Below the pieces are notes generated by a model. The model saw only the letters and a list, made by a program, of their open reading frames with translations, did not search any database and was not told the origin of the DNA. Below are positions 6,654-36,539 of a stretch of DNA of 64,000 nucleotides, piece after piece. A program made the position numbers and the translations under genes. The stretch's first letter is position 1. Each line of letters opens with the position of its first letter. Source of the DNA: Hysterangium stoloniferum (taxonomy: Eukaryota > Basidiomycota > Agaricomycetes > Hysterangiales > Hysterangiaceae); the NCBI GenBank assembly GCA_015178975.1, contig WHVD01000018.1, positions 474,001-538,000 of the forward strand, given 5' to 3'.

Positions 6654-6767
6654 TACAAACTAAGACCACAATAAGATGGAATTGGTAGTATTCTGAAATG
6701 GGAATACAATAAACAAATGAGTGAATACTTGTCAATGGACAAGTTACCAAATGCGGAGCAAATATAC

Positions 6768-7304
6768 TAAGATTACTGGGGGGAATCTAAGCTGATTTTC
6801 TGACTGGATTGTATGTACAACATCTGCCAGACTATATAGATTGTGGAATGAATAACATACCAAATCCAGTAATAATGAAAGCTAAACTAACAAACATAAA
6901 ATGAGATAAATAAACACCAAACTTGGTGTTAGGAATGGAATGGAGCAGAGTGGAGTCTGAATTGTGACAGGTCATAAAACCATAATGGGAATGGAGCGGG
7001 AGTGGAGTCCAAATCGTGACAGGTCATTTGACTATAACGGGAACAGGGCTCAGTTAGAGGGTTGATGTGTTTTCTGAGCAGGGTCTGGTGACTGATGCAT
7101 GGGATGGGGTAGGAGATAAACAGGGATGGAGTCTGGTGGGTATTCTGGTGACTGATACATGAAGTAATGGAGGTCGAATGTAGACAAGTCTGATGTATGG
7201 AGTCCAGCAGGAATTCTGGTAAACTGACAATTGGTGTGTATAGGGTGCAGGTGCATATACAGTAAGTTAGTGCCCGGAGTCCAGTGGGAATTCCAGTCAT
7301 AACA
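6768..7304 (-). mobile_element. 3' LTR of Gypsy element G (family A), truncated
   Basis: It matches LTR-A and the solo LTR at 7592. In minus orientation it starts TGTTATGACTGGAATTCC at 7304. It is truncated at 6768, where it is fused to another LTR, so the U5 part with the stem-loop motif is missing. On the plus side the pyrimidine-rich sequence after 7304 corresponds to the polypurine tract of a minus-strand element. Confidence 0.75.
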
Positions 7305-7515
7305 GTACCTCCCTTTATGTATGCCAAAGTCCCAAAGAGGCTCTAGAACTTGATAAGGTTTTGTCGGCTACATGCATGTGTCAAAGGTCATGTCAGTTAC
7401 TCGTATGTGTCATAAAGTCACATGATCTGGAAGGTAAGGTTCAAACGTGATGAGCCTATATAAAAAATTGAAAAAATGAATTTTCTTCTTCTTTACTACC
7501 CCCATCATCAACATA
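7305..7515 (+). promoter_or_regulatory. Antisense promoter of element G
   Basis: This segment lies between the LTR and the start of the antisense accessory gene. A TATA box, TATATAAAAA, starts at 7457, 59 bp before the ATG at 7516. Upstream are GCCAAAGTCCCAAAGAGG and a GTGTCATAAAGTCACATG block, both with counterparts at the same relative place in elements B, J and L. Downstream of the TATA is a pyrimidine-rich leader. Confidence 0.65.
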
Positions 7516-9289
7516 ATGGGTCGAAAACCAATGCCATGCAGGCCAATGCTGACTGCTGGGCCCTCCACAGGCACTCAATATTGGGCGCCTCTGTTACAAC
7601 TGGAAATCCTGCCGGACTCCGGGCACCAACTTATACGCACCCGTGCCCTATACGCACCATTATCAGTTCACCGGAATTCCCACCAGACTCCGTACATCAG
7701 ACTCATCTACGTTCATCTTCATTACGTTGTGTTTCAGTCACCAGAATACTCACCAGACCCTGTCTCTGTCTAATTCCAACCTTGTCCCACGTGTCAGTCA
7801 CTGGACCCCGCTCAGAATACCTGTCATCCCTCTAACCGAGCCCCATTCCCGTTTTAGTCAAATGACCTGTCATGATTCAGACTCCGCTCCCGCTCCATTT
7901 CCCGTTATGGTTTATGATTTGTCACTATTTGGACTCCGCTCCATTCTGTCCCGTTCCTAACACCAATTTGGTGTTTACTATTCCCGTTTTATGTTTTGCT
8001 CATTTTGTTTCATTATTACTGGATTTGGTATGACATTTACTCCACAGTCTATTTAAACTGGCAGATGTTGTACATACAATCCAGTCAGAAAATCAGCTTA
8101 GATTCCCCCAGTAATCTAATACATTTTCCACTCTAAAAACCCTACTTAATTCACACCGCTCACACTAGTCGGAGCCCACGGGCTCTGGCATATCTATCTC
8201 TCTCACCAGTCTCAACTCACGACCCATGACCTCTGACTTACGACTCACGACCCACAACCCCCACCCGGACTCCCCGGGATTCCCATCTACCTGTCTGAAA
8301 TTGGACGACACAATCTAGCAAGGGCACAGCCTATAAGCTGAAGCCAAGTCCTACCAGATATCCTGTAGGTTTCCGGAGACCCACCCTGTACATATCCTAA
8401 CAACCTCTCACCACTGCCCAAATCTTGGCACAGCAGGAGGAACAGCATCGACAATGAGAGGAGGCTGAGAGGGAGGCCAGAGAGGCTGAAGAGCAGCTGG
8501 ATAGGGAGTATCAGGTGGCACTGGCTGCGGAGGAGGAGGCTGAGAGACAAAGGAAGTGGGATGAGGAGGAAGCCACACGAGTTGCTGCGGAGAAAGCCAG
8601 GGCAGCTGCAGATAGGGCCATGGTTGCCGCAGGAAAGGTAAGTCTCATTGAATCACCATATTGACTTACTGACTTGGCATTTTCAGTGCAAGGCAGCAGA
8701 GGTCGAGTCCAAGTCTGAGGGGGAGCTGGAGAGCCCCCAAAAGGTAAGTCTCGGGTCCATGGGTAATCTGGGAAAGTAACCACATCAACAGAAGTCAAGG
8801 AAAGTGGCACCAGTCTGCCTACCTGCAAGGAATAACCCACAGTGTTCTGGTTGTAATGACCAGAACACTGATTGCAATTGGAAGTCTGGGTGGGGACTGG
8901 GCTGTTTCCAGTGCATGCACCTCAAAGTGAGGTGCTCGCTTGTTCATGAGCAGCCCACGGGGTCCGTGGCATGGGAAGCAAGCAGGTCAGATGGGAATTT
9001 GGGTTTGGATAAGGTCCTAGGGTGGATCACTGAGGGCATAGAGGCCCAAAATGAGTTGCTCCGAAAAAGCAACAAGGTCCAAATTGTGGTGGCGAATGAG
9101 CTCCATGGGCTCCGCTTGGGGTTTTGGAAATTCCTCACAGAGTTCGGCGGATACATATATGAGGAGCCGCAAGCTGGGAGTTCCGAGGATGCCGGGTCGG
9201 ATGAGGACGGGGTGCCCACAGAGGTAGTGGAGCTTCCTCACCAGATGGCTGAGGTTGGGCAAAAACATAGCCCCATAAATGTAGATTGA
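7516..9289 (+). pseudogene. Antisense Zn2Cys6/coiled-coil gene of element G, interrupted by an LTR
   Basis: Exon 1 starts at ATG 7516, is split by the solo LTR 7592-8402 (removing it plus one duplication restores the frame) and continues to 8637. It codes for a charged coiled coil rich in E, A, R and Q, with one TGA stop in a CAA-TGA-GAG context near 8455. Intron 1 is 8638-8686 (GTAAGT..TTTCAG) and exon 2 is 8687-8743. Intron 2 is 8744-8791 (GTAAGT..AACAG) and exon 3 is 8792-9289. All junctions are phase 0. Exon 3 carries CSGCNDQNTDC-x9-CFQCMHLKVRC, the exact spacing of a fungal Zn2Cys6 cluster, followed by about 110 residues with an acidic end. It is convergent with pol of element G (9487-11103, minus). 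The function is probably DNA binding, inferred only from the cluster. Confidence 0.8.
7592..8402 (+). mobile_element. Solo LTR (family A) inside the antisense gene
   Basis: It starts TGTTACAACTGGAAATCC and ends CATATCCTAACA, 811 bp. The flanking 5-mers are GCCTC (7587-7591) and ACCTC (8403-8407), a duplication with one change. A TATA-like promoter region lies mid-LTR, and the U5 stem-loop motif is at 8321-8351 (plus sense: CAGC, CTATAA, GCTG). Its orientation is opposite to the host element G. Removing it joins GCG CCT to CTC ACC in one open frame. Confidence 0.9.
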
Positions 9290-9486: not shown

Positions 9487-11103
9487 TCAGAGAGATGATA
9501 GTGGTCCAGGTTTGAGCGGGTAAGCTGTATGAAAGTCAGTAACAATTTCTGTGGCATTACCGAGTTCCTTGGCCAAAATCCATGAAGTCTCTTCATCGGT
9601 GCCCTCGTAACCCGCCCACTTGACCAAGTAAAGCAGTTTACAAGTGCGTCGATGCTTGTCAATTTTCAAATCTAAAATTTGTGAGATTTCAAACTTGGGT
9701 TCTCCATCAATGATGACCAGAGGAGGCAGAGACTGCATGTGATCTGGGATAGTGTTAGCAGTACAAGGTTCTAACATAGAAACATGAAATACTGGGTGTA
9801 CCGTGTGCATGCTATCCAGAAGCCATAGGTCCAAAAGACTGAACCTACTTGTGCTATTATTTCAAACAGACCTAAATATTTTTCAGCAAGCTTTTTTGAT
9901 GGATGGGTAGTCCAGAAGAATTGAGCTTTGACAAAAACGCGATTGCCAATTTTGAAGTTAGGTGGTGGAATCTGGTGTTTGTCTGCTGAACACTGATATT
10001 TCTCTTGGGTGAACTTTATTGCAGTCTGGAGTTCCTTGTGGAGCTTGTGGAGGTCTGTGGTGAACTCTTGAGCATGGGCAGAGGTGAGATTTTGTTCTGG
10101 ATGTACTGTAATATTTGGATTATATCCTTTATTTGCAAAGAACAGGGAAACACCAGTAGTGGCCGAAGGTGCATTGTTGTAAGCAAATTCTGCAAGTGGT
10201 AATAGGGATTTCCAATTGTCCTGTTGATACTTGCAATATACGTGGAGGTATTATTCCAATGTCTGATTGATGTGTTTGGTTTGTCCATCGCCTTCTGGGT
10301 GATGTCCAGACGTGAAATGTAATTTCATGTCCAAGGATTTCCCGAGGGATCTAAAGAAGTGAGACACAAACTCTGATCCTCAATTGGAAGTTACGTGGGA
10401 TGGAACTCCATGCATGTAAAATACATGGATAATAAAAAAGTTCCGCTAACTACATGGATGTAATGGTATCATATGTAGGAATGAATATACCTTGTTTTGA
10501 GAATCTGTCAACAATGACTAGAATGGTGGAAAAGCCTTTGGAGTCCAGTAGGTGTTCAATGAAATCCATAGAGATGGAATTCCACAGGTGTCCCAGTACC
10601 GGGAGTTGTTTCAAAAGGCCGTATGGCTTGTGTTGCTGAGATTTAGAGTGTGGACAAGTAGTGCAAGATTTACAATAGTGCTTAACGAATCCTTGGAGTT
10701 TGGGCCAAGTGTATTCTCTTATTAATGATAGAGTTTTGTTGAACCCAAAATGTCCTGAGAGTGGATGATCATGTTTGTACTGAAGGATCCTGGGGCAGAG
10801 GCCATCGGAGTCCAGTACATAGATGCAATTGTCAAGTCTAATGAAACTATGCTGGTCAAGAGACCACCAGGGTTGACCAGGGTCCATGGGATTGTCAAGG
10901 TGTGCTTTAGTTATCGGGTCTAGTGGAATTGCTGATAGAATATCTTGATGTAACTTCTCAATATCCATAATGATAATTCCACAGACAATGGGATGGATGA
11001 GGAAAGTCATGTGGACTGATGCGGTAAGTTGCTGATTCGTGAAAATAGGTTTCAAGTTGTGTGGGTTTACCATGGCATAGTCGTATTTTGAACTCTGACT
11101 CAT
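9487..11103 (-). pseudogene. Gypsy element G: integrase and chromodomain
   Basis: The minus strand reads through the RNase H-integrase linker (AMVNPHNLKPIF), the integrase zinc-binding H/C region (GHFGFNKTLSLIREYTW, CKSCTTCPHS), the catalytic Asp in ISMDFIEHLL and FSKQGIFIPTYDT, then breaks at about 10450. Further core text with stops follows. An open C-terminal part (9834-9487) holds a chromodomain (FEISQILDLKIDKHR, YLVKWAGYEGTDEETSW). Chromodomains of this lineage direct insertion to modified histones. Frameshifts and stops (near 10449, 10380, 9835) make it inactive. The 5' half (RT, protease, gag) is not attached; at 11103 it meets element F head to head. Confidence 0.85.
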
Positions 11104-11677: not shown

Positions 11678-13093
11678 TGTTAAGAGCAGAAACTGACGGA
11701 TGTCGGCAGACCAACGGGGACCGAACGGAAGGACTTGGCTTCAGCTTATGTGCTGCGCCCTTGCAAGTTACCGTCAGGTGTCCTTAAATTTTGGGCAGGC
11801 AGAAACTAGTCCTGTCAAGTAAACCTCTTGGTAAACTACTGATCGGAAACCAAAGGATAAGTCAAGGGTTGGGCTGAGGGGTCAGAGACCAAGAGTCGGA
11901 GACTGAGAGAGTCGGAGACTGAGAGAGTCGGAGACTGAGAGAGTCGGAGACTGAGAGAGTCGGAGACTGAGAGAGTCGGAGACTGAGAGAGTAGGAGACT
12001 GAGAGTGTCGGAGACTGAGAGTGTCGGAGACTGAGAGTGTCGGAGACTGAGAGTGTCGGAGACTGAGAGTGTCGGAGACTGAGAGTGTCGGAGACTGAGA
12101 GTGTCGGAGACTGAGAGTGTCGGAGACTGAGAGTGTCGGAGACTGAGAGAGTCGGAGACTGAGAGAGTCGGAGACTGAGAGAGTCGGAGACTGAGAGAGT
12201 CGGAGACTGAGAGAGTCGGAGACTGAGAGAGTCGGAGACTGAGAGAGTCGGAGACTGAGAGAGTCGGAGACTGAGAGAGTCGGAGACTGAGAGAGTCGGA
12301 GACTGAGAGTCGGAGGCTGACAGTCGGAGGCTGAGAGTCGGAGGCTGAGAGTCGGAGACTGAGAGTCGGAGACTGAGAGTCGGAGACTGAGAGTCGGAGA
12401 CTGAGAGTCGGAGACTGAGAGTCGGAGACTGAGAGTTGGAGACTGAGAGTTGGAGACTGAGAGTTGGAGACTGAGAGTGTTGGAGACTGAGAGTTGGAGA
12501 TTAGAGGTTGAAGTTGTAAATGGAGGTTGAATCGTAAATCGGATGGAGTCAGAATGTGTTGGTCATGAATAGATAATGGAGTTGGAAATTAGAGGGGTAT
12601 CTAAGTTGATCTAAGTTGATCTATGTAAGTCGATATTCTGATTGTCTAATAACTACATTTACAGCAGGTTTATATATGAGTTGTCGGCATCTAGAAACTA
12701 CGGTAACTAAGGGAAGAGCGGAAACACTATTTGACAAATAGACTTGACTAGAAACCGGAAAGTTACAATAAGATCAGAAGCCGAGATTTAGCCGAGAGTG
12801 GGGTTACGAGAAAAGGGAATAGTCCATGGGCTACAAGTATATATGGGCATATGTGAAACATAGAGTAAAATGGATCATCATAATGAAAGGGGACGTATCA
12901 AAGCATAACCAGATGGTACGAGTATATTTTGACAGGGGTGTAAACGAGGTTTGATCACCATGGAGGTATACATCAGCGTCAGTGTTCCAAAGGTTGCTGA
13001 AATGATGACTTGATTAATAACTTGGAACATCGATAGACTGTAGTATTCTCGGGGACTGTCAGATTGTGACATGGTTATGACACGGTTGTAACA
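11678..13093 (-). mobile_element. Solo Gypsy LTR (family B/E) inside element F
   Basis: Minus orientation, TGTTACAACCGTG at 13093 to CTCTTAACA at 11678. Flanks CCTAG (11673-11677) and CCCAG (13094-13098) form a duplication with one change. Related to the LTRs of element B and the solo LTR 62801-63573 (773 bp); the extra length here is a minisatellite (about 11885-12500). The U5 stem-loop motif is at about 11729-11766. Removal restores an Asp-Leu-Glu-Gly-Val frame in the pol gene it interrupts. Confidence 0.92.
11885..12500. repeat. 14/16-bp minisatellite, about 40 units, inside a solo LTR
   Basis: A tandem array of GAGTCGGAGACTGAGA-type units. The left two thirds are 16-bp units in two flavours (GAGAGT and GAGTGT starts, arranged in blocks); the right third is 14-bp units (GAGTCGGAGACTGA) drifting to GAGTTGGAGACTGA. 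The blocks of identical variants suggest several rounds of local duplication. Confidence 0.95.
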
Positions 13094-19905: not shown

Positions 19906-21027
19906 TTGCAGGACGACGGCCTTTTGTTCTTCAATATGGCAGGGACCAAACTCCTTTGTATACCTGACCTTACTGTGGGCAACAGATGCGTGCGAGAAAT
20001 GATAATCTCACAGGCACATTCGATTTTGGCCCATTTAGGGGCGCGGAAAACTGCCACATATTTGCGGTCCACGGCGTGGTTGCCATCGATGATGAAGGAT
20101 GTTGAGTTGTTCTGCAACTCATGCAGTCTTTGTGCCACATCAAAATCGGAGACACAGAAATCACAGGGATTCCTCCGCAGTTTGGAAGCGCCTTCACAGC
20201 CGTGGGAGGCAATTGGCATTGATTTTGCTGGTCCATTGCTAGTGTCCAAAAATCGCCTTGGGGAGTTTGACAGCATTTGTGTTATAATCGACCATTTAAC
20301 ATGTATGGTCCATTTGGTGCCCACACGAACCAACTATACTGCTAGTCACATGGCGGAAGTCGTATTTGAACATGTTTATAAGTTGCATGGATTACCGGTA
20401 AGGATTGTAAGTGACAGAGACTCACTGTTTACTAGCATTTTCTGGAGAGAGCTTCACCCGCTAATTGGAGTTGAGTTACAGATGTCATCGGTATACCACC
20501 CTCAGACAGACGGAGCTACTGAACGAGCGAATAGGACTATGACACAAACGTTGTGGCAGTGTGTCTCACCAAATCAGAGAGATTGGGTCTCGAAATTGCC
20601 AGCTATCGAGTTTGCGATGAATAGTGCGACCTCCGAAACTACCGGCTTTTCGCCATTTGTCCTAAACTACGGTCGGTTGCCGCGTCCTCTTATTTGGGAT
20701 CAGGACACTACATACCCTGGGGTTCAAGAGTTCGCAGTGCAAATTTAGCTGGCAATCATGGCTGCTCATGATGCCATTATTGCCGCTCGGGTCAAGCAAA
20801 CCAGGCAGGCAAATCGCCATCGGCGGGCGGTCGCATTTGGGGTCGACGATCTCGTATATTTGTCTACAAAGAACTTACGATTACCAAAGAATCGCACACG
20901 AAAATTAGTGCCTAAATATATTGGGCCATTCAGGATCATTCGGGAAATTGATACCGGGAGTGGCGGGCAGGATTGGAGTGACGAACTTGACGAGTTGGAG
21001 CAAGGGGTCATGGAATTACACAGTTAA
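19906..21027 (+). pseudogene. Element D integrase, chromodomain lost
   Basis: It has the zinc-binding HHCC part (SILAHLGARKTATYL, CNSCSLC), then the D,D,E core: IGIDFAGPL, IVSDRDSLFTS and YHPQTDGATERANR, so all three acidic residues are present. A stop (TAG at 20746) separates the core from the C-terminal part (20758-21027) with YIGPFRIIREI. At that point the frame jumps directly to DTGSGGQDWSDELDELEQG, which in element C is the end of a separate 3' ORF (27368-27628). The chromodomain and tail have therefore been deleted, about 1.2 kb by comparison. Confidence 0.85.
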
Positions 21028-21079
21028 GTCAGTCCGCCGTGATTTTCACACTGCATTAATGGCAGTGTGGGAGGGCGGG

Positions 21080-21344
21080 TGTAACGGTAGCGGACTTGGG
21101 TTAGGGCGGACTTGGCATCGGGGCTGCCGGGACCGCCTGGCCGGCAGTGTCTTGGACTAATAGTTGTTTGTTTCACGGGGTTTACTTGTTGCAAGGGGCT
21201 ATACTGCTATTATCATAAATAGGTAGATCTCTTGTATTGTGATCTTAGTCTCTTTCGAATAGGAACCTAGTCCTACTCATTTCGCTCCCTTTGCAAAGAG
21301 CTCTCTGAGGGATTACGCTACTCCTTCATAGCGGAACCCTTACA
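21080..21344 (+). mobile_element. 3' LTR of element D (265 bp)
   Basis: It starts TGTAACGGTAGCGG, ends GGAACCCTTACA and is preceded by a purine-rich tract (GTGTGGGAGGGCGGG). It corresponds to the LTR of element C at 27053-27315. It is short and contains a TATA-like region and a conserved TTTCGAATAGGAACCTAGTCC block. Confidence 0.85.
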
Positions 21345-27052: not shown

Positions 27053-27315
27053 TGTAAGGGTTCCACTATGAAGGAGTAGCGTAATCAGAGAGCTCTTTGC
27101 AAAAGGGAACGAAATGAGTTGGACTAGGTTCCTATTCGAAAGAGACTAAGGTAACAATACAAGGGATCTACCTATTTATGATAATAGCAGTATAGCCCCT
27201 TGCAACAAGTAAAAACCCGTGAAACAAACAACTAGTAGTCCAAGACACCACTGGCCAGGCAGGCCTGGCAGCCCCAATGCCAAGTCTGCCCTAACCCAAG
27301 TCCACTACCATTACA
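27053..27315 (-). mobile_element. 3' LTR of element C (263 bp)
   Basis: Minus orientation, TGTAATGGTAGTGG at 27315 to GGAACCCTTACA at 27053; the counterpart is D's LTR at 21080-21344. The differences from D's LTR include many C/T and G/A changes. Confidence 0.85.
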
Positions 27316-27367
27316 CCCGCCCTCCCACACTGCCATCAATGCAGTGTGCAACTCACGGTGGACTGAC

Positions 27368-27628
27368 TTAACTGTGTAATTCCATAACCCCTTGCTCCAA
27401 CTCATCAAGTTCATCGCTCCAATCCTGCCCACCACTCCCGGTATCAATTTCCATTGAAATAGTCATGTCCTGACCCTTTCCAACACATATTTTAGCTCTC
27501 TGTGCTGGCCAATGTTTGCTGGCCGGCATAGCAATACTATGAGAGAGTGAGGTACTGATAGTAGCATCAGGCATTATTCTCCCCTGCTGCGCAGCAATAG
27601 GTTCAATCCACTGAAGAAGTGACCCCAT
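27368..27628 (-). CDS. Small 3' ORF of element C
   Basis: An open frame of 86 codons on the element's sense strand, between the pol tail and the LTR. It begins MGSLLQWIEPIAAQQGR and ends in an acidic stretch DELDELEQGVMELHS. The acidic end is found again in element D fused in frame to integrase, because D carries a deletion that ends inside this ORF. No family is recognised; it may be a small accessory protein or part of a longer reading frame interrupted by the stop at 27725. Confidence 0.4.
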   Translation of the reverse strand: MGSLLQWIEPIAAQQGRIMPDATISTSLSHSIAMPASKHWPAQRAKICVGKGQDMTISMEIDTGSGGQDWSDELDELEQGVMELHS

Positions 27629-28148: not shown

Positions 28149-28870
28149 TGTTAAGAACTGAAAACTGACTAATGTCGGTGGCCGACAGGGACCGATCGGA
28201 AGGACTTGGCTTCAGCTTATGTGCTGCGCCCTCGCAAATATCCGTAGGGTGTCCTTAAATTTCGGGCGGGCGAAGACTAATCCTAATGAGTACCTTTCGG
28301 CGTGATACCGATCGGAATCGAAGGACAAGTCGAGCGTCGGGCCAAGGGGTCGGGGCCGGGAGTGGGCGAGCGCACGCGAAGGCGGATGGGGGGATTCTTA
28401 GTATGAGACTGATACAGGCGTATGAGGGTATTCTGAGTCGATATTCTGATTGCCTAGTGACTACGACTACAGCGGGTTCATATACAAGTAACGGGCGTCT
28501 GGAAAATACTAATGGGGAGAAGGGCGGAACACGGTATTAACAATAAGCTTGACTAGGAACGGGAAGTTTATGATTAGTTCGGAGGCCGATGATAACCGAG
28601 AGCGGGATTACGATAAAAGGAAATAGTTCAAGGACTACAAATATAGATAGACATATGCGAAGCATAATATTGAACGGATCAACATAATAAAGGGGACGTA
28701 TCAAAGTTTGACCAGACAATACGAGTTATTTTGACGTAGGCGTAAACAGAGTTTGATCTTCGCGAAAACATTCGTCAGCTTCGGGGCCGATGGTTTCTGA
28801 GATGGTGACTTGAAATGTTGACAAGTGGTGATAACCTCGGGACCGATAGGGTTGCGACACGGTCGTAACA
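28149..28870 (-). mobile_element. 3' LTR of element B (722 bp)
   Basis: TGTTACGACCGTGTCGC at 28870 to GTTCTTAACA at 28149 (minus). The adjacent polypurine tract reads AAAAGGGGAGATAC on the minus strand. The U5 region holds the stem-loop motif (about 28201-28240) and the palindromes TGTCGGTGGCCGACA (about 28173) and CCGATCGG. Confidence 0.95.
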
Positions 28871-29043
28871 GTATCTCCCCTTTTGGCCGAAATCCCAAGG
28901 AGGCCGAAAATCTAGATCCCGTACGTAAAACTTGTCGGGTATGGCTGGGTGTGTCAAAACATCATGTGACTCGGCAAAATTTTGCATATAAAAGTTTGAG
29001 GGTTCCTGGCGCTTGAAATTTTACTTCCCTTCCTTTAACCACC
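28871..29043 (+). promoter_or_regulatory. Antisense promoter of element B
   Basis: A TATA box TATAAAA at 28987-28993, 57 bp before the ATG at 29044, followed by a pyrimidine-rich leader CTTCCCTTCCTTTAACC. Upstream are GGCCGAAATCCCAAGGAGG and a GTGTCAAAACATCATGTGAC block, shared with elements G, J and L although the rest has diverged. Confidence 0.7.
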
Positions 29044-30022
29044 ATGACCATAGGCTCAGGGTCAAAACCCTTCCCGGTTAGATTAACAGTTGTGCCCATG
29101 TCGGTGCTGAGTGGTACGGCGAATGCGAAGGAGCGTCGGCGTATACTCGAGCAGAAGAAAAAGGCATGTGAAGAGGAGGAGCGGAAGGAGAAGGAGGAGT
29201 TGGCAGCCATCGAGGCCGAGGAGAAGAAACAGGCGGCAGAAGAGGCCGCGCGCAAGCACTGGGAAGCAGTGCTTGCAAAGAACAAGCAGCAGGAGGCCGA
29301 TCGGGCGCGGGAGGAGGTGGTGAAAAAGAAGCGGGAGGGAAAGGTAAGTCGGCTCTGGTTTCTTTTGCGAACCTTACTGACAATATTTGTTAGCGCAAGG
29401 CTGCAACGCCTTCGGAGTCTGATGACAAAGAGGGAGAGGAGGACGAGGAGGATGCACCGGGGCCGTCGAGCCCCAAGGTGGGTTCGATTTCCTTAAATAA
29501 AACTTCCCTAAATAATTTTTCCTATAGAAACAAAAGCAGGCCCCCAAGGCGGGGCCCGAAAATGACCCCAAGTGCAATCGGTGCACGAAATGGGGTCGAA
29601 CCTGTCATCCCCAGACCAATGGTCGGGGCCGCACTTGTCAAGAGTGCGCCGATCAGAAGCTTGGGTGTGTTTTCCTGGGGGCCGATGGTTCATTCCAGGA
29701 GTGACAGGCTGATGCTCTAGAAGAGCAAAACCGCCTTATGCAGACCTACTTCTTGGAGACGAGTCGGTTCCGATATGAGATGTTGCGACAACAAGGGCTC
29801 ATAACTGAGCAATTGCGACTCTTGGGCGTCAGGCTGGAGAAACAGACCAGTGTTATCGAGTCTCTCGGTGGTCAACTTGAGCAGTATTTGGAAGTCTCGA
29901 GTTGCAATGGGCATGAAATTGGGGTGTCGGAGAAGGTCGGTGGTGTGGTATCGGTGGCTGTCGGTGTGGAGGAGGGTTCGGAGGCCGGGGAGGAGGGAGA
30001 AGTTGTAGAGGGAGAAACTTAG
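29044..30022 (+). pseudogene. Antisense Zn2Cys6/coiled-coil gene of element B
   Basis: Three exons, opposite to gag-pol. Exon 1 is 29044-29343 (100 codons) and contains a long Glu/Lys/Arg/Ala helix starting AKERRRILEQKKKACEEEE. Intron 1 is 29344-29393 (GTAAGT..TTGTTAG, branch-like TTACTGAC). Exon 2 is 29394-29477 (28 codons, acidic). Intron 2 is 29478-29527 (GTGGGT..CCTATAG). Exon 3 starts at 29528 with basic residues and then CNRCTKWGRTC-x10-CQECADQKLGC, the precise Zn2Cys6 spacing. A TGA at 29702-29704 ends it, but the same frame continues as a Leu/Gln-rich helix and acidic tail to 30022, so the stop is probably a CGA-to-TGA mutation. It ends 97 bp from pol, tail to tail. DNA or protein binding is inferred from the cluster only. 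Confidence 0.8.
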
Positions 30023-30118: not shown

Positions 30119-31612
30119 TTATAAAGAATTGAGAGGACCGGGTTTGTTCGGATAAGCTTGGTGAAACCCTAAAACGATTTCCGAGGCATTACTGAGCTCT
30201 GTAGCTAGGATCCATGAAGTTTCTTCATCTGTACCTTCATAGCCAGCCCATTTGACCAAATAAAGTAATTTGCATGAGCGTCGGCGATTGTCGATTTTTG
30301 AGTCTAGGATCTCTGATATCTCGAATTCGGGTTCCCCATCAATAATCACGGGTGGAGGTGGTGGTTGTATGCGATCGGGTATACTGTTAGGAACACAAGG
30401 TTCTAACATAGATACATGAAATACCGGTGCACTGCACGCATGTTGTCGGGGAGCCGAAGTGTCCATGAAAGTGTGCCGGCTTGTGCTATAACTTCAAACG
30501 GACCTAAATATTTTTCAGAGAGCTTCTTAGAAGGTCTAGTAGTTCGGAAAAACTCGGCTTTAATGAATACTCGATCTCCGATCTTGAAATCAGGAGGCGG
30601 AAGTCGGTTTTTATCTGCAGACCATTGGTATCGTTCTTGGGCCATTGCGATAGTTTTACGAAGTTCTTGATGTAGCTCGTCAAGGTTGGTAATGAAGTCT
30701 TGAGCACGGGCGGATGCGAGATCGCATTCCGGGTGGATTGTGATGTTGGGGTTGTAGCCTTTATTTGCGAAGAAAGGTGAAATGCCGGTAGTGGCATTTG
30801 GTGCATTGTTATATGCGAATTCGGCTAGTGGTAGTAGTGATTTCCAATTGTCTTGTTGATAGTTGCAATAGACACAGATGTATTGTTCCAAGGTTTGATT
30901 CATGCATTCGGTTTGTCCATCGCCTTCCGGGTGATAGCCTGAAGTGAAATGTAGCTTCATGTCTAGTGCTTTTCCAAGTGACCTAAAGAAGTGAGAAACA
31001 AACTCGGATCCGCGATCGGATGTGACATGCGACGGAACGCCATGCTTGGAGAATATGTGGGTGACGAATAATTCAGCTAACTGTACAGATGTTATTGTGT
31101 CATATGTTGGAATGAAAATACTTTGCTTTGAGAGCCGATCCACGACAACTAGGATCGCTGTGTGACCTTCGGATGCTGGTAGGTGCTCGATAAAATCCAT
31201 AGAAATCAAGTTCCAAGGTTTTTCCGGTATTGGTAATTGTTTGAGTAGGCCATATGGTTTGTGTCGCTGTGATTTAGAGCGTAAACACGTAGTACAGGAT
31301 TTACAATAGTGCTTAACAAAATCTCGGATGCCGGGCCATGTATATTCTCTTCTAATGAGTGAGAGGGTCTTATTGAGGCCGAAATGTCCCAAGATTGGGT
31401 GGTCGTGTTTATGTTGTAGGATTCACAGCCGAAGGGTGTCGGAATCCGGTACATAAATGTGATTGTCAAGTCTAATGAAACCTTGTGAGTCTAATGACCA
31501 TTGGGGTTGATCGGGGTCGGACGGGTTATTGAGGTGTGCTTTGGTGACTGGGTCTAATGGAATTGCCGATAGTATATCTTGATGTAACTTTTCAGTATCC
31601 ATAAGGATAACA
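30119..31612 (-). pseudogene. Element B integrase and chromodomain
   Basis: The integrase zinc-binding region (HPILGHFGLNKTLSLI, CKSCTTCLRS) is followed by the D,D,E core: ISMDFIEHLP, TSDRGSEFVSHF and YHPEGDGQTECMNQT. After LGPFEVIAQAG a one-base loss near 30430 shifts the frame. The chromodomain (EFEISEILDSKIDN, YLVKWAGYEGTDEETSW) follows in the open frame ending at 30119. A TGA near 31421 lies in the linker (compare an Arg codon at the same place in G). Apart from these two lesions the catalytic residues are all present. Confidence 0.9.
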
Positions 31613-31614
31613 CT

Positions 31615-32943
31615 TCACAAGACTGGATGAATGAGGTAAGTGGCTTGGATAGACGTGGACAGTTGTTCCGATGAAAACATAGGCTTGAAATTATGCGGGT
31701 TAACTGTGGCGTAGTCGCTACTCCCCTCTTTAGGATAGACGTCCCATCGTCTAGTCATAGCGTCGGGTTTTCCACCAAGGCGGCCGGGGCGGAAACGAAT
31801 TACCATGTTGAAAGCAGAGAGGTATTCGGACCATCGAGCTTGTCGACGGGTGAGAAGTTTTGTGGTTGAAAAGTAAACTAAATTTTTGTGGTCTGTAATA
31901 ACATCTACCGGGTGGGCCGAGCCTTCCAAATAATGTCGCCATGTCTTGAAAGCTTCAAATATTGCGAGTAGTTCCTTATCGTGAACGTCATAGTTGAGTT
32001 CGGGCGCCGAAAATGTGCAGGACAGAAAAGCTACTGGGTGTACTTCACCATCGGTGTCCAGAATGGACAATATCGCGGCAAGCGCATAGTCTGAAGCATC
32101 AGTTTCCATGATGAGTTGAACGTCGGGCTTCCAGTGCGACAAAATAGGGGTGGATGTAAACACACTTTTCAATTCCTGGAATGCCGATCGGCATTCTTCA
32201 GAGAAATTCCACGGGGCGTCTTTACGAGTAAGACGGGTGAGCGGGACGGTAATGTTTGAGTAGTTGTGAATGAAACGACGATAAAAATTGGCGAAGCCTA
32301 GAAAGGATTGAATATCCTTAACCTTCCGGGGTTCCGGCCAATCTTGAATGACTTGAATTTTAGAGTCGTCCATGCGGAGACCGTCAGGTCCCATCATAAA
32401 CCCTAAATATTCAACTGTGTCGACATCAAAAGAACATTTTTTACCATTTGCAAAAAGACCATGTTTTTGGAGTCTTCGGAGAACTTCACGAACGTGTCCG
32501 TCATGAAGTGTAGGATCTTCGGAGAATATGAGGATGTCGTCTAAATACACAATGACAAAGACGTTGAGGAGGTCGGAAAAGACGTCGTTGATAAAACGTT
32601 GAAAGACCGACGGAGCGTTGGTGAGGCCGAAAGGCATTACTAACCATTCAAAGGAGCCATAGCAAGTGTGAAAAGCCGTTTTCCATTCATCGCCTTCGGC
32701 GATCCAAACCAAATGATAGGCATGCTTGAGATCTATCTTTGTATAGATTCGGGCCTTCCGAGGGGCATCGAGTAAATTGGATATTAATGGTAATGGGTAC
32801 TTGTCTTTTTGAGTGATCGCATTTAGTCCTCGAAAATCAATGCAAAGTCGAAGGGAACCGTCTTTTTTCCGAACGAATAGGACGGGGGCTCCATAAGGAG
32901 ACTTTGAGGGTCGGATAAAACCTATAGCCAAATGTTCGTCCAA
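31615..32943 (-). CDS. Element B reverse transcriptase and RNase H
   Basis: An open frame of 442 codons. RT blocks are [52 protein letters not shown], catalytic [12 protein letters not shown] (about residue 131) and [15 protein letters not shown]. RNase H follows: [17 protein letters not shown] (Asp), [20 protein letters not shown] (Glu) and [10 protein letters not shown] (Asp). It copies the element's RNA into DNA in cytoplasmic particles. It is bounded by TGA stops on both sides (32950, 31615) that look like mutated Arg codons within one gag-pol frame. Confidence 0.92.
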
Positions 32944-32949
32944 GAAATC

Positions 32950-33815: not shown

Positions 33816-35120
33816 CGACTCGACAGCCGGCTTGGCCAGTTGTGAGGTCGTGGCCATATTAGCTGATCGGGCTTTTGTGGCTTTTGGGCAAGCAGCAACT
33901 CGGTGTCCAGGATCTGCGCACAACAAACAAAGGTTGTTGTCCATTCGGCGTTGCTTTTCCTGTGGTAGGAGCTTGCCATCGGAGCTGAGTTTGCCAGTTA
34001 AGTCGGGTTTGTCTTTGTCTTGAGACTTATTCGACTGTTTTCCCTTGCCTTTTTTGTCGTTAGCCCCTTTGTTTTCGGACTTCTTATCGGAGGTCGAGTT
34101 GCCATTGTTGTTGGTGTTTTGATTACCAGACTTGTTGGCGTTCTTATTGTCCGATGATTTTTTGTCCGAGGGGTTTTCGCAACTAATTTCCGAATGTCGT
34201 TCCCAGTATCAGGCGTCTGCGTTTTGGGCTTTCAGACACATGAGAGAGAGGGTCTTCGGCTTGCTGGTCTCTCCTTTGGAGACTTCATCTTTGAGGCGAG
34301 ATGGAAGGCTGGAGTAAAACTGGTAATGGAGGGCCGAATCGCCCCAGTCGCAATGCGCGGTGAGGTTGTTGAACTGGACAATGTAATTGGTGATGCGCTG
34401 AGTGTCTTTCATTTTGAGATTAGAAAGCGCGGTTTCGGCATCACCGGTTTGGTTGTAGGGACCGAAGTTAGTTTCGAGTTCCTCGACAAAGGCATCCCAA
34501 TCGTGAAGCCAATCGGGGTCTTCGGAGGTGAGGCCAGAGAATGCGGGTTCAAACCAGGCTGCTGCGGAATCCTTAAGGTATGAGAGTGCGAAGTTTACCT
34601 TTCGGTCATCCGTTGCGAATGCAGCCGGGCGGTCCCGAAAGTTGAATCGACATTGCATAAGAAATGTCGGCAATTTCTTCGGGTTTGAGCCAGTGAATGG
34701 CTCGGGTTTGTTGACTCGGGTTTGCCCAGGTTCCATTTCCTTGATATTGCTTTTAAGGAATTCGTTAAGGGATCCTAGAGTACCTGAAAACAATTCGCAT
34801 GTTTCTTCAGGGTCGAGAGCCGGTTTCTTTTTTGCGGACTTCTTGGAGCCACTAGCCTGAGGTTGGTCACCATCCTCGGGTTCGTGTTCCGAAACTGGTT
34901 GATTGTTAATCTCCTCAGTTGCTTCGGGATTGGTTGCTTCAGTTACTTCTTCAGCATTGCCAGTAATCTCCACAAAGCGAGATTCTTTGGAGGTTTCTGG
35001 TAGCAGAGTTCTCTGAGTAGCTTGGGCTGTATACAGAAAAGGAGACTTGAGAGTGGAAGATTCTGCTTCGCCGCTAGGCTTGGCATTTCTTCTCGGAGGC
35101 ATGATTAACGGAAAATGCAA
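33816..35120 (-). pseudogene. Element B gag (capsid and zinc knuckle)
   Basis: The likely start is MPPRRNAKPSG at 35102, 38 bp from the LTR; an in-frame Met at 35120 is the alternative. An acidic N-terminal part is followed by the capsid-like region (LPTFLMQCRFNF, AAWFEPAFSGL, VEELETNFGP, YIVQFNNLTAHC). A TGA at 34209 precedes YWERHSE, probably a mutated CGA. The frame continues with a Lys/Asn-rich stretch and the knuckle NLCLLCADPGHRVAAC (C-x2-C-x4-H-x4-C, near 33910-33935). Gag forms the particle and binds RNA. Confidence 0.88.
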
Positions 35121-35139
35121 GTGTGAAATCAGAATATAC

Positions 35140-36539
35140 TGTTAAGAACTGAAAACTGACTAATGTCGGTGGCCGACAGGGACCGATCGGAAGGACTTGG
35201 CTTCAGCTTATGTGCTGCGCCCTTGCAAATATCCGTAGGGTGTCCTTAAATTTCGGGTGGGCGAAGACTAATCCTAATGAGTACCTTTCAGCGTGATACC
35301 GATCGGAATCGAAGGACCAGTCGAGCGTCGGGCCAAGGGGTCGGGGCCGGGAGTGGGCGAGCGCACGTGAAGGCGGATGGGGGGATTCTTAGGAGGGTGT
35401 TTATAATTACTATAATCTCAAATATTTACTAATAAAAGTCTTATTTTTACAAAACTCCATCTTTAAATAGTGATATCTATTCTGAAACAATTATATCATC
35501 AAAAAACAACCATCAGAAATAGTTCTCCATATTACATCTTATACAACCCATAGTTATTTAACAAATTCTATTGTATATAATTTCCTTCCTTTTACAGATG
35601 TCTACTAATACTTTTATTAGTACTTTGTCTTTTAAAAGCTGTAATGTAGTTATTTCCTAGTAAAATATATGAGATGTCATTGGAAATTTTTCATCCTATG
35701 GCCTTCTTTATTAAGTGAAATTACCTATATATTCTGGGTATGTTGAATCAAGTAGAAATCTGTTCAGATTGACAGATCCATTCCAAAGTAATACATATGT
35801 ATTTAGAGGTGCCAATGATATACATATGCATGGAATGGACTATCTAAAGGTATCTACTTTTTAAAAGTATTAGTGTTTCAAACTACTAATTTCTTTTATT
35901 GTCTACTCGTGTCCAGAAAGATTCTTTAGTTTGTAATGTATGAGAGAGTTTAAAACTTTTTGAAAGTTTTAAAAACCAAATTATGTTTGAATCACATCCC
36001 AGATGTTTAAATGACCTTTAGAGTATATTAGAATTTGGTATACTTAATAGTTTTCAGATATCCTCCTTAGTATGAGACTGATACAGGCGTATGAGGGTAT
36101 TCTGAGTCGATATTCTGATTGCCTAGTGACTACGACTACAGCGGGTTCATATACAAGTAACAGGTGTCTGGAAAATACTAATGGGGAGAAGGGCGGAACA
36201 CAGTATTAACAATAAGCTTGACTAGGAACGGGAAGTTTATGATTAGTTTGGAGGCCGATGATAACCGAGAGTGGGATTACGATAAAAGGAAATAGTTCAA
36301 GGACTACAAATATAGATAGACATATGCGAAGCATAAGATTGAACGGATCAACATAATAAAGGGGACGTATCAAAGTTTGACCAGACAATACGAGTTATTT
36401 TGACGTGGGCGTAAACGGAGTTTGATCTTCGCGAAAACATTCATCAGCTTCGGGGCCGATGGTTTCCGAGATGGTGACTTGAAACGTTGACAAGTGGTGA
36501 TAACCTCGGGACCGATAGGGTTGCGACACAGTCGTAACA
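35140..36539 (-). mobile_element. 5' LTR of element B with nested MITE
   Basis: TGTTACGACTGTGTCGC at 36539 to GTTCTTAACA at 35140. Without the MITE (35392-36066) and one TTA it is 722 bp, the same as the 3' LTR. Confidence 0.95.
35392..36066 (-). mobile_element. MITE, copy 2 (675 bp, TSD TTA) in the LTR of element B
   Basis: GGAGGGTGTTTATAAT..GATATCCTCC, flanked by TTA (35389-35391 and 36067-36069). The other LTR of the same element has the empty site with a single TTA (28398-28420 region: GATTCTTAGTATGAG). It is the reverse complement of copy 1 (3413-4068), similar throughout. Confidence 0.92.

Follow-up and report, generated by a model that had tools for sequence, protein, structure and literature searches.

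An antisense gene with introns and a six-cysteine cluster in chromodomain Ty3/Gypsy elements of Hysterangium stoloniferum

The 64,000-nucleotide stretch of Hysterangium stoloniferum DNA analysed here (assembly GCA_015178975.1, contig WHVD01000018.1, positions 474,001 to 538,000; hereafter the window) contains a Ty3/Gypsy chromodomain retrotransposon with an additional gene on the plus strand, opposite to gag-pol, between the pol stop codon and the 3' long terminal repeat (LTR). By comparing genomic copies we show that a chromodomain Ty3/Gypsy lineage of this agaricomycete, a truffle-like fungus (false truffle), carries a real antisense accessory gene, common to two long-diverged families. The same comparisons strongly support that the gene, with its introns, is element-encoded and evolves under purifying selection, as measured by the ratio of nonsynonymous to synonymous substitution rates (dN/dS, or omega). 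A sequence-only reading of the window had placed three exons and two 50-bp phase-0 introns antisense between chromodomain and 3' LTR, and its coordinates were confirmed. With the 3' LTR at 28149-28870, its inner edge and the start codon at 29044 are 174 bp apart. The gene ends at 30022 and the stop codon of pol, behind the chromodomain, starts at 30119, i.e., the two genes are convergent with their stops about 96 bases apart. The antisense orientation and the location in the interval from pol to the 3' LTR are those of the additional genes called aORF-3R. The parts of the gene are as follows.

28871-28982, plus strand: polypurine-tract side and upstream promoter region; most conserved non-coding stretch among those measured
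28985-28994, plus strand: TATA box (CATATAAAAG) of the antisense gene
29044-29343, plus strand: exon 1, Glu/Lys-rich charged helix with basic KKKREGK at its end; dN/dS 0.22
29344-29393, plus strand: intron 1, 50 bp, phase 0, GTAAGT..TTAG
29394-29477, plus strand: exon 2, acidic linker; dN/dS 0.18
29478-29527, plus strand: intron 2, 50 bp, phase 0, GTGGGT..ATAG
29528-29701, plus strand: exon 3, first part, basic KKQKQ patch and six-cysteine cluster; dN/dS 0.15
29702-29704, plus strand: in-frame stop TGA; first stop at that codon in 5 of 40 aligned copies, including the window copy
29705-30022, plus strand: exon 3, second part, coiled-coil-like stretch (judged by eye) and acidic tail, read in unbroken copies; dN/dS 0.19

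The window copy itself was taken by the sequence-only reading to be open to 30022, which overlooked the TGA at 29702-29704; its product has 186 amino acids and ends just past the cysteine cluster. In unbroken copies the product has about 292 amino acids, of which about 105 lie beyond the stop of the window copy. Because these copies read through it, the segment 29705-30022 belongs to the gene.

Selection was analysed with copies from the 111-Mb, 554-contig assembly. The dN/dS set comprised 12 of 14 sequences, i.e., the window copy and 13 divergent loci chosen partly for an open exon 3, after removal of L081, which has an internal deletion, and of L082, whose exon 1 is expanded and frame-shifted. 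In the gene frame omega was 0.198 (95% codon bootstrap 0.164-0.238), not near 1, as expected if the sequence-only reading had recognized a functional gene. The other five frames of the same copies gave 1.10, 0.98, 1.08, 1.16 and 0.34. A sense-strand gene overlapping the antisense gene was considered as the source of constraint and rejected: over the spliced columns two of the opposite frames are near 1, and the remaining one, at 0.34, has its third codon positions in common with the gene. Transversion rates at codon positions 1, 2 and 3 were 0.051, 0.058 and 0.120, and those in the introns 0.15-0.19. Synonymous divergence (dS) between divergent copies reached about 2, which is saturated.

Exon 1 is 297 or 300 bp long in 11 of the 12 divergent copies (it is replaced in L078), exon 2 changes in threes in all 12, and exon 3 (to 29930) does so in nine, with L079, L086 and L087 shifted. 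Intron lengths vary freely, from 49 to 61 and from 48 to 58 bp, with one intron 2 reduced to 17 bp. Eleven of the 13 divergent loci have GT..AG at both introns; the other two, L081 and L084, carry deletions in that region. The low dN/dS specific to the gene frame and the multiples of three by which exons 1 and 2 vary show that the selection acts on the protein.

A second set consisted of 40 close copies, the window copy and the 39 other best DNA matches, a choice that favours copies carrying the gene. Both GT..TAG splice pairs were retained in all 40, and 19 were intact from ATG to stop, which bears out the expectation of other intact copies with the same position and exon plan. Departures from the modal length occurred in four copies for exon 1, three for exon 2 and four for exon 3; intron 2 was off-modal in 18 and intron 1 in none. 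Outside CpG sites, ten nonsynonymous and 16 synonymous variants were common to at least two copies; against an expected ratio of about 2.9 this gives an omega of about 0.21, and single-copy variants gave 0.39. CpG-site transitions made up 148 of the 249 coding variants, with an omega of 0.62 for single and 1.07 for shared variants; this pattern resembles methylation-related decay of copies.

The constraint on the antisense gene was compared with that on pol using seven of the 14 sequences of the divergent set (from L078-L085 plus the window copy), and eight for identity figures. Omega was 0.22 for the gene, 0.20 for integrase and 0.30 for the chromodomain end. With these seven sequences dS was 0.73 for the gene versus 0.26 for integrase, a nearly threefold difference that could stem from codons rich in CpG or from elements trading their 3' modules. 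Among the 40 close copies integrase divergence was 0.093 because the integrase piece is replaced or cut in L010, L018, L019, L021 and L027. In these five copies the antisense gene is 95-97% identical despite the altered integrase piece.

Conservation extends upstream of the coding region. The segment 28872-28982 showed 89% mean pairwise identity (eight sequences), against 71-73% in the introns and 80-88% in the exons, and over 28900-28982 the transversion rate was 0.034, well below that of the introns. The TATA box CATATAAAA is exact in nine of the 13 divergent loci, altered in three and lost in one, where the 5' part is replaced. The conservation upstream of the TATA box may partly reflect plus-strand priming, though it spans more than 100 bp.

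Genome searches with exon 3 returned the best 150 of 452 and the best 150 of 628 candidates (overlapping sets), and a search with exon 3 of the second family described below returned the best 150 of 1274; in each search all 150 scored candidates were matches. Pairing with chromodomains was based on the best 150 matches per list and 45 added entries. For at least 114 of the 150 best chromodomain matches a gene match was found just beyond the chromodomain on the opposite strand, with a median start-to-start distance of 720 bp, which agrees with the antisense arrangement proposed from the window. The number is a lower bound because two of the 36 unpaired matches have a neighbour in another gene list and one is the copy L043. 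None of the 150 listed gene matches has a chromodomain on its own strand. The gene thus shares a further property of aORF-3R genes, presence in most family copies (at least 114 of 150, with splice sites in 40 of the 40 best gene matches). Among eight divergent copies retrieved with flanks, the gene lies opposite a chromodomain or integrase in seven (not L082) and has an LTR on its other side in seven (not L078), with both features in six.

A second, distant element at 7.3-11.1 kb of the window carries a homologous antisense gene in the same place.

7457-7590, plus strand: TATATAAAA box (7457) and gene start (ATG 7516)
about 7591-8126: reversed LTR-like insert within exon 1
8458-8637, plus strand: later exon 1 (charged helix), past an in-frame stop
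8638-8686: intron 1, 49 bp, same position (GK^CKAA)
8687-8743, plus strand: exon 2
8744-8791: intron 2, 48 bp, same position (SPQK^K)
8792-9289, plus strand: exon 3, C-x2-C-x6-C-x9-C-x2-C-x6-C and helix-prone tail
9487-9861, minus strand: chromodomain end of pol (PF00385, 30.3 bits), 70% identical to 30122-30487

The start region at ATG 7516 reads MGRKPMPCRPML, compared with MTIGSGSKPFPVRL in the first element. The exon-3 products of the two families are 25% identical (BLASTP, E 5e-8), and all six cysteines align. For the second family, 65 of the best 150 gene matches pair with one of the 150 chromodomain matches, which lies on the opposite strand and 509-1340 bp away. Pairs within 2.5 kb are all arranged in this way, and 85 of the 150 lack a partner among the chromodomain matches listed. 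Since the homologue has the same place, introns and cysteines, either the gene was there before the families diverged or it passed from one to the other. The insert at 7591-8126 is 80% identical to the stretch at 6760-7305. The motif TCATGTGAC or its reverse complement precedes each of the two antisense TATA boxes by about 20-40 bp (at 28962, and reversed at 7417), with a third copy at 1101; these are three occurrences in the window versus about 0.5 expected.

The cysteine spacing of the first product, C-x2-C-x6-C-x10-C-x2-C-x6-C, is as written in the sequence-only reading. In 47 distinct rows, collapsed from 82 matches, the six cysteines are 96-100% conserved, as are about ten other residues including several G, H, P, Q, K, L and F. 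This conservation, together with sharing by the distant second family, fits a metal-binding cluster. In both families the spacing agrees with the C-x2-C-x6-C-x5-12-C-x2-C-x6-8-C of fungal Zn2Cys6 proteins. The products resemble Zn2Cys6 (Gal4-type) factors in having C-x2-C-x6-C-x9/10-C-x2-C-x6-C followed by a linker and a coiled-coil-like stretch; they differ from them in that the cluster lies mid-protein and scores under the Pfam cut-off. Cluster, linker and coiled coil is the order of the DNA-binding parts of Gal4-type proteins.

The best explanation of these features, with about an even chance of being correct, is that the protein works in the nucleus, where it binds DNA and regulates the element. 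We deduce expression, zinc binding, DNA binding and regulation from the order of the domains and the conserved promoter. In this scheme the antisense mRNA would be made from its own TATA promoter and spliced, and the two basic patches of the product, KKKREGK and KKQKQ, could carry it to the nucleus. There the zinc cluster and the coiled coil would bind DNA in dimeric form, the likeliest targets being the promoter or LTR of the element itself. Such binding might set the level of sense transcription, a feedback like that of retroviral HBZ, a bZIP protein made from a spliced mRNA, or like that proposed for plant antisense open reading frames (ORFs). Because the introns are antisense, they cannot be spliced from genomic RNA and hence outlast every round of reverse transcription, which is how a retroelement can hold introns; the protein would therefore be made only from nuclear antisense mRNA. 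More tentatively, and with somewhat less than an even chance, this spliced zinc-cluster regulator could predate the family split and act in trans on elements and perhaps on host genes, with some young siblings thriving without a copy, as a fungal counterpart of HBZ.

Several results weigh against a zinc-cluster regulator gene. PF00172 scored 14.2, 14.7 and 16.9 bits in the products scored, below the Pfam cut-off of 21, and a PDB sequence search gave no match for the antisense product. An AlphaFold model of the first-family cluster, made without an alignment, had a middling predicted local distance difference test score (pLDDT) of 67 and no Foldseek match at E≤0.001; the model of second-family exon 3, with a pLDDT of 40, was not used. 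The cluster also departs from the residue pattern of PROSITE PS00463. The sequence is suggestive of a fungal Zn2Cys6 (Gal4-type) domain proper, no more, and we class the motif as Zn2Cys6-like and leave it outside PF00172.

Other points concern the state and distribution of the gene. Twenty-one of the 40 close copies are not intact, and the whole gene is unbroken in just two of the 13 divergent loci, most of which are old copies. Shared CpG-site variants among the close copies show no constraint (77 nonsynonymous to 41 synonymous), which we read as neutral deamination. Five siblings with a 1302-aa open pol (C1:274048-275349, C3:193486-194787, C523:182246-183547, C221:53641-54942 and C496:545864-547165), 96% identical in integrase and 90-91% in the chromodomain, have no antisense-gene match among the matches listed; other elements with the same open pol do carry the gene (e.g., C32, C37, C135, C167 and C377). 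A PF00172 search of the genome gave 52 matches, none of those listed adjoining the five siblings. These siblings may lack the gene, carry a more distant version or receive the product in trans, and the gene may be dispensable in cis. Protein searches, which need shared five-letter words and reach close relatives only, found no homologue outside H. stoloniferum; no Botrytis protein matched in them. In the species itself four GenBank models cover pieces of the gene (BU17DRAFT_68404, 70826, 80596 and 86143). BU17DRAFT_70826, which matches contig C84 at 99% and 98% in two segments, contains exactly the exon 2 and the beginning of exon 3 predicted here for its locus, and it skips the cysteine cluster, the copy being broken there.

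Alternatively, the protein could serve integration by travelling with the pre-integration complex and aiding nuclear entry or, with the chromodomain, site choice. Selection equal to that on integrase, the fixed place beside the chromodomain and the basic patches would suit such an accessory, and roles of this kind are discussed for plant antisense ORFs (PMC7264820). However, a conserved putative promoter of its own and introns suit a nuclear mRNA separate from the genomic RNA, and the present analysis found no tie to integrase, which makes this function unlikely. A counter-silencing factor that acts in cis and in trans on host heterochromatin, methylation or RNA interference is distinctly unlikely: host methylation pressure is indicated by the strong CpG decay (148 of 249 coding variants) and the young siblings with no gene match among those listed may be served in trans, but Pfam and protein searches showed no similarity to a known anti-silencing protein. 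That the antisense RNA is the useful product, through double-stranded RNA control, and the protein incidental is very improbable. Convergent genes with closely spaced stops would allow it and antisense promoters of such a kind are known (PMC7264820), but the frame-specific dN/dS of 0.20 and the changes of exon 1 and 2 lengths in threes largely refute it. Next to no probability attaches to an ORF that arose by chance or to a functionless host gene lately captured by one family. In favour of this reading are the stop in the window copy, the 21 of 40 close copies that are not intact and the 11 of 13 broken divergent loci. It is refuted by dN/dS, whose frame-specificity rules out an ORF by chance; against it also stand purifying selection at dS up to about 2, a second family 25% identical with the same introns, and the best 150 matches in the searches with each of the two families.

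Genes of this general kind have precedents. An antisense gene, brtn, of Boty-like elements was reportedly treated by Zhao et al. in 2011 (Virology 417:248). Antisense additional genes of LTR retrotransposons are a known kind (PMC7264820, PMC11963269, PMC8365987, PMC4227169, PMC5987419), and Boty of Botrytis cinerea is a fungal Ty3/Gypsy element with the extra antisense gene brtn between pol and the 3' LTR (PMC7264820, PMC4227169). The statement that no fungal Ty3/Gypsy case was known was therefore too wide, Boty brtn having been published, as those articles cite it. A BRTN-like transcript is also reported in Monilinia (PMC5987419). Boty resembles the H. stoloniferum element in being a chromodomain Ty3/Gypsy element with an antisense gene at the same place; it differs in its ascomycete host, and a zinc cluster goes unmentioned in the descriptions of brtn consulted.

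Plant aORF-3R genes, which occupy the same place, include Grande gene23, RIRE2, Retand ORF4/TRP28 and PvRetro13; TRP28 is predicted to bind DNA, and Grande gene23 is nuclear and has its own upstream promoter (PMC7264820, PMC11963269). Their domains are others (TRP28, SMC), the word intron is absent from PMC7264820 and PMC11963269, and no link to them at the sequence level emerged, none having been looked for. HBZ of human T-cell leukaemia virus type 1 (HTLV-1) and APH-2 are retroviral antisense genes for nuclear regulators (PMC11963269). The HTLV antisense promoter lies in the 3' LTR (PMC7264820), whereas the H. stoloniferum TATA box stands inside the element next to the polypurine tract, and a cysteine cluster takes the place of the bZIP. 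A search of the literature in article listings, abstract openings and text passages, with most subscription journals outside it, turned up no fungal retrotransposon with an antisense gene that has introns or a zinc cluster. As far as searched, the introns, the zinc-like cluster, the frame-specific selection and the preservation of the gene in distant families are new.

LTR retrotransposons have well-documented antisense accessory genes with obscure roles, and the H. stoloniferum case offers a recognisable, putatively metal-binding motif. It has introns, a predicted promoter of its own, an integrase-like dN/dS and at least 300 matches in two families that are about 25% identical. Where the function of such genes has been a blank, it thus gives claims on zinc, DNA binding and LTR control that can be tested. 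It also illustrates how a retroelement keeps introns over the long term. The four GenBank models are a warning that element genes of this sort are being listed as host proteins in catalogues of fungal genes.

The element in which the gene sits has gag, reverse transcriptase, RNase H and integrase in the order of a Ty3/Gypsy chromovirus, with a C-terminal chromodomain and an LTR at either end.

28149-28870, minus strand: 3' LTR, 722 bp, TGTTA..TAACA
30119-30493, minus strand: chromodomain end of pol (PF00385, 29.7 bits, cut-off 25.1), convergent with the antisense gene
30403-31422, minus strand: integrase (H2C2, rve, Tf2-1-like SH3; Pfam)
31615-32949, minus strand: reverse transcriptase and RNase H (Pfam)
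34209-35141, minus strand: gag (Retrotrans_gag, Ty3 capsid-like; Pfam)
35140-36539, minus strand: 5' LTR, split by about 678 bp of other DNA

Of 722 aligned LTR positions, 705 are identical between the two. The element is flanked by CCGAC and CTGAC, which look like a 5-bp target-site duplication. In the window copy pol is split over several frames. The insert in the 5' LTR lies at about 35393-36070. Elsewhere in the window, inverted repeats 6 kb apart (20943-21292 and 27102-27452; 91-96% complementary) are perhaps LTRs of other, oppositely oriented elements, and 11796-12467 is an array of 16-bp tandem repeats (at least 30 registers) that is open in several frames as S-Q-S-P-T-L repeats.
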